From: Leptolyngbya subtilissima AS-A7
GTDB taxonomy: Bacteria > Cyanobacteriota > Cyanobacteriia > Phormidesmidales > Phormidesmidaceae
Assembly: GCF_039962255.1 (NCBI RefSeq)
Contig: NZ_JAMPKY010000007.1
Location: 124,001-188,000, forward strand
Direction: 5' to 3'
Length of the DNA stretch: 64,000 nucleotides
The translations under genes were made by a program, and so were the position numbers. This document shows positions 11,979-47,816 of this stretch, in pieces (within the stretch, counting starts at the first letter, position 1; each line of letters begins with the position of its first letter). The notes below the pieces were generated by a model that saw nothing but the letters and a program-made list of their open reading frames with translations, was not told where the DNA came from and made no database searches.

Positions 11979-12287
11979 CTATTTCAACGGCAGCCCTAGT
12001 TTTTACCCCAGCCAAATTCCCCTACGTTAGAGGTTTGCTCAGTTGGCAGTGTCGGCATCAATACCCCTTCTGCCGTCAGTAAAGCTTTATGGATTGTGAT
12101 AGACCATTGAGATACGATTTATTGACAATTCTTAAAGCCCTTGAGAAATAAAGCTTTTCAGAGGTTTGATTACGCCCTTCACATGGAAGAGGTCACTGAT
12201 TCGAAACCGGTATCGCCCATACATTAGTTTTGACAAGTCAGCACTTGCAGGCACGTTGCAAATGTTGAACTGTCAAAGTCTATTGAA
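11979..12287. other. Non-coding stretch between the herA remnant and the transporter gene
   Basis: No credible gene on either strand. It holds the tRNA-Val fragment at 12176-12219 and is otherwise AT-richer than its surroundings. Confidence 0.6.
12176..12219 (+). pseudogene. Fragment of the 3' part of tRNA-Val (att-like remnant)
   Basis: The 44 nt match positions 29-72 of the intact tRNA-Val(CAC) at 47745-47816 with 41 identities. They cover part of the anticodon arm, the variable loop, the T arm and the 3' acceptor strand (GTATCGCCCA). The 5' part of a tRNA is absent. Such 3' fragments are the usual trace left at the far attachment site of an element that integrates into a tRNA gene. It points the opposite way from the intact tRNA. 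Confidence 0.75.
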
Positions 12288-42856: not shown

Positions 42857-43919
42857 CTAAAAATTTGGTAGCTTAATATCCGGATTCACATTGCCGACGT
42901 AGCGACGCAAAATGGTCTCCGGCGTATTGCCAGACACCGCACTAATCGACCCAATCGACTCCCCCTCCTCCACCGAATGAGAAATTCTAGATATCCGCGT
43001 TGTGTAGGGCTTCCGGTATCGAATCTCCGCCAGTTTCAGCGCCAGTTGCCAATACCGCTTTCGAAAATTCCCCGTATGAATTGGCTTCCCTCGCACCGAC
43101 GTGAAAATGAGACTGTCCGGGGATGGCTGCTCAACCCCTTGGCTCATACACACCGCATCCTACCGACGCTTCAAGATCTCTTTTGCCGTCTCATTGAGCG
43201 GAATAGCCCTCGTCTTCCCCTTCTTGGGCAGCTTCCGCTCCTTCTTGCGGGTCAGCTGCTCCAAAATATTCACCCGCGAAAAGTCCTTCGCCAAATGTTT
43301 CCACCGTAGCCCCAGCAGTTCACCAGGCCGACACCCCAGATTCAGCGCCACCCGCACGTAGTCCGCATAGTGGGTCAACCGCTCCTCTGTTTGAAAAATG
43401 CTGATCAGCTCCTCAATCTCCACGCGGGTGAACGGCGACGGCAGCTTCTGCGTCAGCTTCACCCCCTTAATGGCCTCCGTCCACGGATCCGGTTCCACCC
43501 CGTAGCCCCGTCGGGCTGCCCACTGCCACTCATCTCGAATCCGGTACAGGTAGCTTTTGCGTGTTTCCTGGCTCAGCGGTTTTTCCATCAGCCAGTCCAC
43601 AAACTTAAATCCGTCCTCTTCCCGTAGCCCCTTAATCAGTTTTTCACCCCAAAACGCTTGCAGCTTCTTCAGAGCATAGCGGTAGCCATCCTCCGTACTA
43701 TCGGCATCAAATCGATGGGTCTTGCGGTACAGCTCCCATAGCTCATCGAGCCGTCGCGGCTCCCCTGTCTTCTGGACAACCTCCTGCTTCGGAAACAGAC
43801 GGTACTTCGCTTTGGTTGGGTCAAAGGTGCCGTTCTTCAAATCCACCGCCAAAAGCTCAGCGCGGTTCTGAGCCAGCTCCCGATTTGTGGGTGTATCTTT
43901 GGTCCCCAGATAGCAGTAG
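42857..43919 (-). pseudogene. Tyrosine-type phage integrase, cut by CAST and interrupted by an amber stop
   Basis: One frame holds both halves: 43160-43852 (230 codons) and 42857-43153, separated only by a TAG at 43157-43159 after LNETAKEILKRR. Arm-type N-terminal sequence (YLGTKDTPTNRELAQNRAEL) continues upstream of 43852 until it runs straight into the transposon end at 43920, so the true start is lost. The catalytic region has CRPGELLGLRWKH with the first Arg, and near the C-terminus the nucleophile Tyr in ETILRRYVGN. The usual HxxR box is altered (TTRISRIS). It is an integrase of a tRNA-targeting island. Confidence 0.8.
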
Positions 43920-44140
43920 TGTCGAGTAACAGATTATCCGTCGTCTTAACAAACTTTTGTCATCTAATCAAAAATCGCTAAACTATTGATAGAAAAGGGT
44001 TTTAGCGATTGCCGAGCACCCAATTCTCGTTAGCAAGATTAACATTATATGTGTCGCCTCCTCGAGAACTAACAAATTAACTGTCGTATTTTAGCTGCTA
44101 CTATCTGGCAGAATTTAACAGAATAAGTGTCATGTATTGA
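43920..44140. repeat. Transposon end opposite the tRNA
   Basis: Begins TGTCGAGTAACAGATTATC, followed by TnsB-site-like motifs: CCGTCGTCTTAACA, TTGTCATCTAATC, AACTGTCGTATTTT and TTAACAGAATAAGTGTCATG. The first 11 bp match the inverse of the other end exactly. The original tnsB side would normally lie here. Confidence 0.75.
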
Positions 44141-44173
44141 GGGGTCTTACCTTTCAATCTCAATGAAAGTTCA

Positions 44174-44317
44174 TCAACTTTCACTCCCTCTATAGGATTT
44201 ACCACAGTAGGGACAGAACCGGAACTTGAGAGAGGCAATGGGTTCCTAGCAACCTGAGCAGCGGTCTTGCAACTTGCTCCCACAGACGAAGCATTGCTTT
44301 GAGCGCGAAGCCGTTAA
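44174..44317 (-). pseudogene. Zinc-ribbon protein remnant (cargo)
   Basis: The minus strand reads KQCFVCGSKLQDRCSGC, then TAG, then EPIASLKFRFCPYCGKSYRG and ends. Two CxxC-type pairs on each side form a double zinc-ribbon layout interrupted by one nonsense codon. The frame has no good start. It is probably a short cargo gene of the transposon that has decayed. Confidence 0.45.
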
Positions 44318-44407
44318 TTATAGAGGTGGTCTCGCCGGGGACGGAGGCATATAAACGGGGTGGAAAATTTACGCTCTACCGTCAGTTAGACAATCTGAAG
44401 GAGTAAA

Positions 44408-46140
44408 GAGTGGAACCAAAACGGGAAAATTCCTGCCGACGTTTTTGAAAACCTGCGCAAAAATCTGAAAGAAGATTCAGCCTTTCAGGGAATGCCAGGG
44501 CGCTGGTATTACGCTGGCCGAGATTCGGTTAAGCGAATCTATAAGTCATGGCTCACCAAGCAGCGTCGCTTATACAGCCGGTTAGATGGTCAAACTCACT
44601 GGCTCACCGTCCTCCAGAGTGATGATGAACTCATAGCTGCCTGTAATCAAGACCTAGAGGTAATGCGAGCCGAAGCAGCAGCGCTTTTGGTCAAGGCTGA
44701 GGCTGAAGCACCTCCTAGCCCCAGTGCCAAAAAATCAAAAAAATCTCCTCACCCCCAGAAAAAGACTCAAAAGCAGAAATCTGCCCAACCCAGTAAAAGC
44801 CTCTATCCTTGGCTATTTGAGGCATACAAAACCGCAGAAACAGATTTGTCTAAGTGCGCGATCGCCTATCTGCTAAAAAATAACTGCCAGATTCCCACGA
44901 AAGCAGAGCATCCCAAAAAATTTCAGAAGCGCCGCCGTAAAGCCGAAATTCGGGTAGAGCGGATTATTGAGCAGTTAGCTCGCACTCGACTACCAAAAGG
45001 GCGCGACTTAACCAACGAGAAGTGGCTTGACACCCTCAAGATGATCGTTCAGCAAGTTCCAGAAGATGAAACCGAGATTGCTTTATGGGCAGCCGATCTA
45101 CAAACAGACTCTAGCTCTCTACCTTTTCCCATAGCTTACGAAACCAACGAAGACCTGAACTGGTCTCAGAATGACAAGGGGCGACTCTGCGTGCGCTTCA
45201 ACGGGCTAGCTGAGCACACCTTTGAGGTCTATTGCGATACCCGTCAGCTCCACTGGTTTAAACGCTTCCTAGACGATCAAACCATCAAAAAACAGGGAGG
45301 CAAACTACACTCTGCTGGTGCCCTAACACTCCGCTCGGGTCGCATCGGTTGACGGTTAGGCGCTGGCAAAGATGAACCAAGGAAGGTACCGAAAAAGCTA
45401 GCCAAGAAAAAGCCTCTAAAATTGCCCAGGTAATCTCTGGTACAAAGGCCAAAGGTAATTTGACCAGCCAGCAGAAAGACTTTGTTCGCAAGCGGGAAAA
45501 AACCTTAGCTCTGCTTCAAAACCCGTTTCCCCGCCCTAGCCGCCCCCTCTATGAGGGAAGTCCAGCAATCCTCGCTGGTGTCAGCTTTGGCTTAGATAAA
45601 CCCGCCACTCTAGCTATCGTGGATGTCACCACAGGCAAAGCCATTGCCTATAGAAGTATTCGGCAACTGCTCGGCGACAATCATAAGCTGCTCAATCGGC
45701 AGCGCCAGCGCCAACAGCAAAAAGCCCAGCAACGACGCAGCAACCAGTTAAAGTTTGCTTCCAGCCGCGTTTCTGAGGGTGGACTAGGAGACCATATTGA
45801 CTCGCTGATAGCTAAAGCCATCGTCCAAACCGTCCAGCGGTATAACGCCAGCAGCATTGTACTTGGTGATCTAACCAACATCCGCGAGGTCATCGAGAGT
45901 GAGATACAGGCCAAGGCAGAGCAAAAGACTGCCCTTAAGGAAATCCAAGCCAAATATGCCCGAGACTATCGCACCAGCATTCACCGTTGGAGCTATAGTC
46001 GGCTAGCGCAGAAGATCGAGAGCAAGGCTCTGCAAGCAGGTCTAACCGTGGAAACGATAAAACAGCCCTCCATTGGTACTCTGCAGGACAAAGCACGAGA
46101 GATCGCGATTGCAGGCTTTCAATCCCGCAAAGTCAGCTAA
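44408..46140 (+). pseudogene. cas12k: cas12k, broken by 5' loss and internal deletion/frameshift
   Basis: Coding sequence begins in mid-protein at KEWNQNGKIPADVFENLRKN, so about 60 N-terminal residues are missing. It runs through SVKRIYKSWLTKQRRLY and RMPKGRDLTN-like RLPKGRDLTNEKWLDTL to HSAGALTLRSGRIG, where a stop follows. A few codons continue in another frame (LGAGKDEP). Then the frame of 45460-46140 resumes with TEKASQEKASKIAQV, leaving out roughly 25-35 residues. The second part has the RuvC-like GVSFGLDKPATLAIVD and ends LQDKAREIAIAGFQSRKVS. Cas12k is naturally nuclease-dead and only guides insertion. Confidence 0.87.
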
Positions 46141-46144
46141 ATTC

Positions 46145-46174
46145 TTGACAGTGGTTCATGGGTACCAGTACATT
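46145..46174 (+). promoter_or_regulatory. Sigma-70-type promoter of the tracrRNA
   Basis: -35 TTGACA at 46145-46150, 18-bp spacer, -10 TACATT at 46169-46174. Transcription would begin near 46181, where the tracrRNA similarity starts. It lies 5 bp after the cas12k stop. Confidence 0.75.
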
Positions 46175-46180
46175 GTTTCT

Positions 46181-46376
46181 AGCGCCGCAGCTCATGCCAG
46201 TAATGGCCAATGTGTTGTGCAAAATGCGAGCTAGTTTGACTATCTGCTAAGTAGTCTTGCTTTCTGGCTCAGGTAACTGTCCACCCGCAAGGTCGTTGGT
46301 GCGCTGGCGATCGGAGAGCATGGGTCCTGTAGTGATGGTTACCGCTTACACCTCCGATCAAGGAGGAATCCACCCA
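46181..46376 (+). ncRNA. Type V-K tracrRNA
   Basis: Starts AGCGCCGCAGCTCATGCC and contains the conserved blocks seen in the ShCAST tracrRNA: GTTTGACTATCTG with AAGTAGTCTTGCTTTCTGGC, GTGCGCTGGCGATCGG, TGTAGTGATGGTTACCG and the hairpin CCTCCGATCAAGGAGG at 46351-46366. The anti-repeat AATCCACCC (46367-46375) follows. The order and spacing of these blocks agree with known V-K tracrRNAs, and the RNA looks intact even though cas12k is broken. Confidence 0.85.
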
Positions 46377-46385
46377 AACCCTAAA

Positions 46386-46441
46386 TTTGGCAAACCTAAG
46401 CAAGGGCGAAATCTCTAGGGAGTTTGCCAAAAAAGTGAAGC
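46386..46441. repeat. Inverted repeat downstream of the tracrRNA
   Basis: TTTGGCAAAC (46386-46395) and GTTTGCCAAA (46432-46441) form a perfect 10-bp stem with a 36-nt loop. It may fold at the 3' end of the tracrRNA transcript; no U run follows on the plus strand. Confidence 0.6.
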
Positions 46442-46576
46442 CATTATTGTGGCAGGCTTTCGGCTTATTGGCTGTAGCCCAACCAGTACCCCAAATCCTT
46501 TTCTTGCTGTAACAGTGTAACCTTTGCCAAAAAGGCCATTGAAACGCTTGATGGATACGGGCTGTAGATCACAGGG

Positions 46577-47487
46577 GTTGCCTCACCCTTTGAGGCCCAG
46601 GAGCGATTGAAAGCTGTCTCTGGCGCCGCTGTCGGGGGCTATGTGGGGGGGTTGCCTCACCCTTTGAGGCCCAGGAGCGATTGAAAGATCGTAGTGTAGT
46701 TGCTGGCGTCAAACGTGCCGCTGGGTTGCCTCACCCTTTGAGGCCCAGGAGCGATTGAAAGAACTAAAGCAAAGGTCAACACCATCATGGCTAGGCAGGT
46801 TGCCTCACCCTTTGAGGCCCAGGAGCGATTGAAAGAAGCCAGCTACGCTATCCTCTTAGGGAAGCGTAATCGTTGCCTCACCCTTTGAGGCCCAGGAGCG
46901 ATTGAAAGTTGACGATACAATTGGGCCCTAAAAAACGTTTCAAGGCGTTGCCTCACCCTTTGAGGCCCAGGAGCGATTGAAAGAGGCTAACAATGTGCTC
47001 AGAGCCCGAGGGCAGTGTGAGTTGCCTCACCCTTTGAGGCCCAGGAGCGATTGAAAGTCCTGCTGCCGGTTTACTCTACGGTCTTTTCCGTAGTTGCCTC
47101 ACCCTTTGAGGCCCAGGAGCGATTGAAAGAATTCGGTTGAGAGTTTCCACTTGGGCATGGCAATGGGTTGCCTCACCCTTTGAGGCCAGGAGCGATTGAA
47201 AGTCGATAATCTTAATGTCCAGCAGCTCGGGGGCATTTGTTGCCTCACCCTTTGAGGCCTAGGAGCGATTGAAAGCTCAAGCCAGACCCCTACGATAAGG
47301 GTGAAATCGCTGGTTGCCTCCCCAGCTTGAGGCCTGGGAGCATTGGAAGGCGACGTAATCAAGCATTCCCCATGCGACAAGGTTGCCTCCCCCTTCGAGG
47401 ACTGGGAGGTCTTGAACGCATAAAACGAACTGATGCAGCATCACGCGCGGGCAAGCTGCCTCACCATTTGGGCTTAGAAGCTAAAGT
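46577..47487 (+). CRISPR. CRISPR array, 13 repeats, degenerate at the 3' end
   Basis: The 37-bp repeat begins GTTGCCTCACCCTTTGAGGC and ends CCAGGAGCGATTGAAAG. Repeats start at 46577, 46651, 46725, 46799, 46872, 46947, 47021, 47093, 47167 (one base lost), 47239 (one change), 47313, 47382 and about 47455; the last three are increasingly degenerate. Spacers are 32-38 bp, mostly 36-37. No cas1, cas2 or other effector genes are in the window. The inner stem is CCTCA...TGAGG. Spacer targets cannot be told from the window, apart from the separate guide at 47572. Confidence 0.95.
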
Positions 47488-47549
47488 CCCAGCAAACTGA
47501 ACTAATGTCTTTCAGGACAAGCGTACTGCCACACTGGGTTTGCGTTATT

Positions 47550-47588
47550 CTTGACTTGGGTGGATTGAAAGGCGCGCTTCCTTCACAC
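47550..47588 (+). ncRNA. Delocalized homing crRNA (repeat end plus 17-nt tRNA-matching spacer)
   Basis: GGGTGGATTGAAAG (47558-47571) is a V-K-type repeat end. The spacer GCGCGCTTCCTTCACAC (47572-47588) equals the tRNA-Val gene at 47780-47796 on its sense strand, 17 of 17. The 3 nt before that target are GTA, fitting the GTN PAM of Cas12k. The repeat end is exactly complementary to the tracrRNA anti-repeat AATCCACCC. After the 17 nt the match stops, as reported for V-K homing guides. Confidence 0.87.
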
Positions 47589-47610
47589 TAGGCTGATAGA
47601 AGCGCTTTTG

Positions 47611-47734
47611 GACGACACTAAAGTGTTATCGACTGATCTTAAGGCTTTTGATGACATCAGACTGTTAAGACGACATCGAACCCGTTAGGACGACACTAAA
47701 GTGTTATCGACGACAACTAAATCGTTACTCGACA
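47611..47734. repeat. tRNA-proximal transposon end with TnsB-site-like repeats
   Basis: The 22-bp unit GACGACACTAAAGTGTTATC-GA occurs twice exactly (47611-47632 and 47689-47710), with an imperfect copy between (GATGACATCAGACTGTTAAG). The end is GTTACTCGACA at 47724-47734. The terminal heptamer CTCGACA is repeated at once (47728-47734 and 47735-47741), just before the tRNA. Confidence 0.8.
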
Positions 47735-47744
47735 CTCGACAGTA

Positions 47745-47816
47745 TGGGCGATACTGGTTTCGAACCAGTGACCTCTTCCGTGTGAAGGAAGCGCGCTACC
47801 ACTGTGCTAATCGCCC
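47745..47816 (-). tRNA. tRNA-Val(CAC)
   Basis: 72 nt. Acceptor stem GGGCGAT / ATCGCCC with discriminator A, D arm with AGCACAGTGGTAGCGC, anticodon stem CTTCC/GGAAG with loop TTCACAC (anticodon CAC), T arm CTGGTTCGAAACCAG. The CCA end is not encoded. It is the target of the CAST homing guide. Confidence 0.95.

Follow-up and report, generated by a model that had tools for sequence, protein, structure and literature searches.

How does a transposon come to lie ten nucleotides from a tRNA gene, with a short CRISPR-type guide at its edge that repeats part of the same gene? This question is raised by a locus in the window, i.e., the whole 64,000-nt stretch of the Leptolyngbya subtilissima AS-A7 genome that was analysed. 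Homing by an anchor spacer was reportedly described for type V-K systems by Saito in 2021 and by Hsieh & Peters in 2021. The locus is best explained as the homing unit of a type V-K (Cas12k) CRISPR-associated transposon that was inserted at tRNA-Val under the direction of its guide and of which the window copy is a remnant, and a probability of about 0.93 is assigned to this explanation. It is based on features of the sequence, namely the guide match, the PAM, the distance, the transposon ends, and the same layout in relatives. The locus offers a clean natural example of guide-directed homing combined with decay, in which the tRNA target and the homing unit have stayed intact, cas12k has been disrupted, and the transposase genes have been lost.

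The homing guide and its target

The part of the window around the tRNA gene contains the following features:

47552–47571, + strand: R*, the truncated CRISPR repeat of the homing guide, TGACTTGGGTGGATTGAAAG; 11/14 match of the last 14 nt to the array repeat
47572–47588, + strand: homing (anchor) guide of 17 nt, GCGCGCTTCCTTCACAC; exact match to tRNA-Val(CAC) positions 21–37
47589–47734, − strand: left end (LE) with TnsB-type repeats and its terminus at 47734; 144/146 nt shared with the LE of L004
47735–47741, − strand: extra TGTCGAG between the tRNA and the LE, a copy of the LE tip by sequence
47745–47816, − strand: tRNA-Val (CAC), the attachment gene, intact; ARAGORN and Rfam RF00005 (64.1 bits)
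47780–47796, − strand: protospacer in tRNA-Val, exact guide match
47797–47799, − strand: PAM GTA (GTN type), the 3 nt preceding the protospacer

The guide has the arrangement expected of a homing guide, with a short repeat and a spacer of about 17 nt that lie outside the CRISPR array and beside the LE. An earlier note on this DNA had stated that the spacer is identical to tRNA-Val positions 21–37 and that the target is preceded by GTA, a GTN PAM. Both statements proved correct, as the flanking tRNA carries the GTA and a protospacer that agrees in 17/17 nt. An exact search of the 5.66-Mb genome returned two copies of the guide string, the guide itself and the tRNA-Val target, and the same two places alone were found genome-wide when a PAM and up to three mismatches were allowed. 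In the guide's own copy the PAM position is occupied by AAG, so tRNA-Val is the sole PAM-bearing match with up to three mismatches. A better genomic match for the spacer, which the earlier note had named as grounds for giving up the idea, was found by neither search.

The mode of targeting at tRNA-Val is the type V-K homing already published in the accessible text of PMC9938897 and PMC11406308. The former describes the homing layout, the 17-nt guide length, the GTN PAM, and the tRNA target for type V-K. The window agrees with it in having R* and a 17-nt guide beside the LE, a GTN PAM, and a tRNA protospacer pointing at the element. It differs in lacking transposase genes, in its broken cas12k, and in its rearranged right end. 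Truncated, separately placed guides to tRNA attachment sites are described in the consulted part of PMC11406308, and a delocalised homing crRNA in that of PMC11656645.

The left end and the insertion distance

The PAM lies 62 nt from 47734, and the tRNA 3′ end lies 10 nt from the LE. Position 47734 is taken as the true end because three observations place it there. Within the window, the terminal inverted repeat of 11 nt, TGTCGAGTAAC, has just two copies, at 43920 (+) and at 47724–47734 (−). The same LE (144/146 nt) is joined to a different target sequence in L004. Finally, the LE rule, which requires a TGT and, 19 nt inward of it, another TnsB-type repeat, gives 62 nt alone for the window. 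An end at 47741, in the extra copy of the LE tip and 55 nt from the PAM, was rejected on the same three grounds. The transposon end proposed earlier, at 47734 and 62 bp past the PAM, was thereby confirmed, and the end did not map well outside 60–66 bp, the other finding that was to tell against guide-directed insertion.

An insertion distance of 60–66 bp is the figure for ShCAST. The earlier note had taken it as the window for Cas12k-guided insertion in general; the 62 nt observed here fall inside it and are mid-range among sister loci, but the natural spread is wider, with 44–65 nt in the loci sampled and 46–82 nt, with one exception of 147, for natural type V-K LEs in the accessible text of PMC9938897. 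According to the available parts of two further papers, almost all delimitable CASTs, of several types, lie 50–60 bp from the target site (PMC8649781), and 55–70 bp were counted as on-target in one assay (PMC9876797); the string “60-66 bp” is absent from the accessible portion of the latter.

Content and decay of the element

The element spans 43920–47734 (3815 bp) and comprises the right end (RE), a cas12k pseudogene, the presumed tracrRNA region, a CRISPR array, R* with the guide, and the LE. The remaining features of the locus are as follows:

42857–43919, − strand: tyrosine integrase remnant; PF00589 on 43160–43852
43920–44150, + strand: right end (RE), terminus TGTCGAGTAACAG at 43920, inner limit approximate; 11-nt inverted repeat with the LE
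44406–46140, + strand: cas12k pseudogene; NF038191 with 361 and 284 bits on two pieces (cut-off 150)
46367–46377, + strand: putative tracrRNA anti-repeat core, AATCCACCCAA, complementary to R*
46577–47275, + strand: CRISPR array of 37-nt repeats, nine copies with up to three mismatches

Both ends are of the TnsB type and share the terminal inverted repeat at 43920 and 47734. By analogy with related systems, TnsB would bind both of them. The effector gene of a type V-K system is present, though broken. In comparison with an intact 641-aa homologue (L003), its first ~45 codons are missing and a 55-nt deletion at ~45378 breaks the frame. Twelve degenerated Cas12k proteins are mentioned in the accessible text of PMC9938897, so a broken cas12k is a known state as well. 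The region at 46367 is presumed to encode the tracrRNA from its position between cas12k and the array. In the array, one repeat has a 1-nt deletion at ~47167, and degenerate copies continue to ~47420. The segment between the RE and the broken cas12k (44150–44400) has no sizeable match in the other elements compared.

No tnsB, tnsC, or tniQ was found across the window by tblastn with E up to 1e-3 and two TnsB/TnsC/TniQ query sets. Together with the broken cas12k, this makes the element a non-autonomous remnant of a type V-K element, and the window copy is unable to transpose by itself. Consequently, the guide would either have led an intact ancestor to this site in the past or have acted in trans.

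The right end and the history of the site

The right end has been rearranged since insertion. The integrase gene beside it has an in-frame stop codon (43160–43162), and its N-terminus is cut off by the RE at about the 50th codon. At L109, an intact 403-aa homologue, 85% identical in DNA, starts 158 nt downstream of tRNA-Val(CAC); relative to this arrangement, the window lacks ~0.3 kb between the point where insertion would be expected and the junction with the RE. A 5-bp target-site duplication was sought at the flanks of the element and was not found, the RE being flanked by AGTAG and the LE by CTCGA. Either a deletion beside the RE or a recombination event involving two copies would account for the lost duplication and flank. 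The element on C14, another contig of the genome and the only other element with both ends placed, has no target-site duplication either, so its absence is perhaps not special to the window copy. The same search in relatives was mostly uninformative, with right ends that lie beyond the stretches examined or were not recognised.

A further trace of the tRNA is present in the window. A 44-nt copy of the tRNA-Val 3′ end (41/44 nt) occupies 12176–12219 (+), ~35 kb from the tRNA-Val gene and in the opposite orientation. A similar 47-nt copy of a tRNA 3′ end is present in genome G004, 65 kb from the tRNA and in the same orientation. The copy at 12176–12219 resembles an old integrative-element attachment site, with a later inversion in the genome of the window.

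Relatives at the same tRNA-Val

An identical guide and tRNA are shared by the window, L003, and L004, with tRNA-to-end intervals of 10, 12, and 9 nt and PAM-to-LE distances of 62, 64, and 61 nt, respectively. One guide with three different junctions is what would be expected of separate guide-led insertions. Genome G020, to which L003 belongs (with L114 and L121), is 85–87% identical to the window in the DNA from cas12k to the array. Unlike the window, it has an intact 641-aa Cas12k, tnsB, tnsC, tniQ, and cargo, with the junction at 64 nt. Its tnsB, tnsC, and tniQ share a contig with its LE, ~24 kb away; its right end was sought and not located. Genes for a DUF4007 protein, a large protein whose AAA match is weak and falls below the cut-off, a PAPS-reductase-type protein, and a DndB-type protein (L114:10595–18847) look like defence cargo. 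In L004, from Nodosilinea sp. WJT8-NPBG4, the LE is nearly that of the window; in contrast to the window, the junction is at 61 nt and cas12k is open over 502 codons without the 55-nt deletion; the contig begins inside the cas12k region, so this frame leaves out the first part of the gene.

Homing guides in sister Cas12k loci

The layout was surveyed in two sets of Cas12k loci. In the first, 60 loci and the window were reduced to 53 by removing one without a usable C-terminus and seven duplicates. A tRNA faces the LE in 37 of the 53; the other 16 have none within the stretch examined, among them L011, whose guide matches outside a tRNA. A guide with at most two mismatches was found in 35 of the 37 loci with a facing tRNA, in a search that required a GTN PAM and a GAA-type repeat end, neither of which is therefore an independent result. 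L031 and L033 have no guide and short cas12k-to-tRNA gaps (404 and 39 nt), and they are counted against the homing explanation. The second set of 25 loci was reduced to 12 by the removal of three duplicates and ten loci without a tRNA, and all 12 contain a guide. Taken together, with the window included, 47/49 distinct loci with a facing tRNA have a matching guide. Decoys, in which the guide region of one locus was compared with a tRNA from a different locus and for a different amino acid, gave 0/1076 guide-like matches.

Among the 35 loci with a guide (window included), 33 allowed the LE to be called; it lies 59–65 nt from the PAM in 31 of them, with 44 and 55 nt in the others. Among the 11 called in the second set, seven lie in this range and the others at 46, 54, 56, and 58 nt. 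The pooled figure is thus 38/44, and the six distances outside the range (44, 46, 54, 55, 56, and 58 nt) are counted against guide-directed homing. When the 60–66 bp rule is applied to sister loci, as the earlier note had proposed, it holds for most of them (26/33 and 6/11) and fails for the remainder. The search for unoccupied tRNA-Val loci, also proposed there, was successful: no LE lies within 45 nt of tRNA-Val(CAC) in 21 flanks from relatives, so empty sites exist.

Pentamers of the LE tip (TGTAC or TGTCG) occur between the tRNA and the LE in 10/33 loci, namely the window (47735–47741), L005, L008, L009, L010, L019, L026, L035, L087, and L090. The mean after shuffling was 0.72, with 0/10,000 shuffles reaching 10, and such pentamers occur in 0/21 empty tRNA-Val(CAC) flanks. 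These copies are possibly traces of earlier insertions at one site. Layered old ends are nevertheless not claimed, since the pattern failed to replicate in a fresh set under a rule fixed beforehand (0/11; shuffle mean 0.08). In the window, L005, L008, L009, L026, and L087, the supposed older tips would lie 54–57 nt from the PAM, distances that for the most part fall outside the usual range. Nothing convincing emerged when the C13, C14, and C1 stretches were searched for the remainder of an older LE. In L035/L119, a type V-K locus at tRNA-Pro on C13 of the same genome, the 22 nt before the LE resemble the LE of another element (TGTCGAGTAACGG...), and the PAM-to-end distance is an odd 44 nt.

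Proposed mechanism and alternative explanations

By analogy, insertion would proceed through RNA pairing, Cas12k binding, and transposition by TnsB. R* and the 17-nt guide, read toward the LE, would pair with the tracrRNA of the element and load Cas12k, which would then bind tRNA-Val(CAC) positions 21–37 beside the GTA PAM. TniQ, TnsC, and TnsB would insert the element ~62 nt onward, 10 nt beyond the tRNA 3′ end. An insertion past the 3′ end would spare the tRNA and leave the target intact. The claim of the earlier note that this guide directed the insertion is supported by the unique match, the distance of 62 nt, and the same layout in sister loci.

It is conceivable, though very improbable, that the element reached the tRNA by another route, such as untargeted insertion or a protein target selector, and that the guide was copied from the tRNA afterwards. 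The origin of the delocalised crRNA is called unclear in the accessible part of PMC11656645. However, the PAM distance is nearly constant across many tRNAs, one guide is found with three different junctions at the same tRNA, and all type V-K systems lack a second TniQ/TnsD for attachment-site targeting, according to the available text of PMC11406308. An even more remote idea, hardly credible, is that the DNA reached the tRNA through the tyrosine integrase, in the manner of integrative elements, and that the CRISPR match is incidental. The intact homologue 158 nt from the same tRNA in L109 would fit, as would the tRNA-Val 3′ fragment at 12176–12219, which is typical of an old attachment site. 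Yet both ends of the element are TnsB-type inverted repeats, the guide layout and spacing are common to sister elements, and the integrase gene, being truncated at the RE, lies outside the element.

The remnant may also have been mobilised in trans by a resident intact type V-K element after the loss of its own transposase. The genome would provide for this, since it has three further Cas12k genes of full length, and C14 carries a tnsB-tnsC-tniQ set. Such mobilisation is nonetheless unlikely: the nearest TnsB in the genome, that of C14, shares 58% identity with its counterpart in the close relative G020 (a second TnsB, on C1, 39%), the C14 left end TGTACAGTGAC differs from the window ends, and the rearranged right-end flank fits decay in place.

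Possible pairing of R* with the putative tracrRNA

Comparison of the sequences leads to a tentative and rather doubtful suggestion, that the anti-repeat core of the tracrRNA might have co-evolved with R* rather than with the CRISPR array repeats in type V-K. If this were true, homing and roaming guides would be sorted at the RNA level in one Cas12k system. Should the pattern hold, it would provide a testable rule of how one Cas12k tells its home-site guide from plasmid-seeking guides. No earlier statement of such a rule was found in the literature covered, outside which Saito 2021 and Hsieh & Peters 2021 lie, and the lead may be new.

In the window, R* is perfectly complementary over 11 nt to the putative tracrRNA region at 46367, a length reached by 6/2000 R* shuffles; the array repeat has no exact run of more than 5 nt there. 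The comparison was extended to 37 loci with both a guide and a repeated array unit, after dropping two without a guide and 11 without a repeated unit. It was made post hoc on this one set of related loci, and the remaining part of the array repeat may pair at other sites. An exact R* core of 8–11 nt complementary to the tracrRNA region is present in 29/37 loci. Measured against the last 20 nt of the array repeat, the longest exact run of R* is longer in 31 of the 37, equal in five, and shorter in one. At the best 9-nt site, R* pairs better than the array repeat in 28 loci, equally well in eight, and worse in one; pairing of at least 8/9 is attained by R* in 33/37 loci (9/9 in 16) and by the array repeat in 14/37. 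At the best 9-nt site of R*, the array repeat has one to three non-Watson–Crick positions in 31 loci, four in five, and none in one. In 14/37 loci (e.g., L014, L019, and L140), the last 14 nt of the array repeat match or surpass R* in predicted duplex energy. With foreign tracrRNAs of another R* class, R* reaches 8/9 in 316/1234 pairings. The anti-repeat sequence at the pairing site, which was chosen by R* and is thus biased that way, varies jointly with R* between families.
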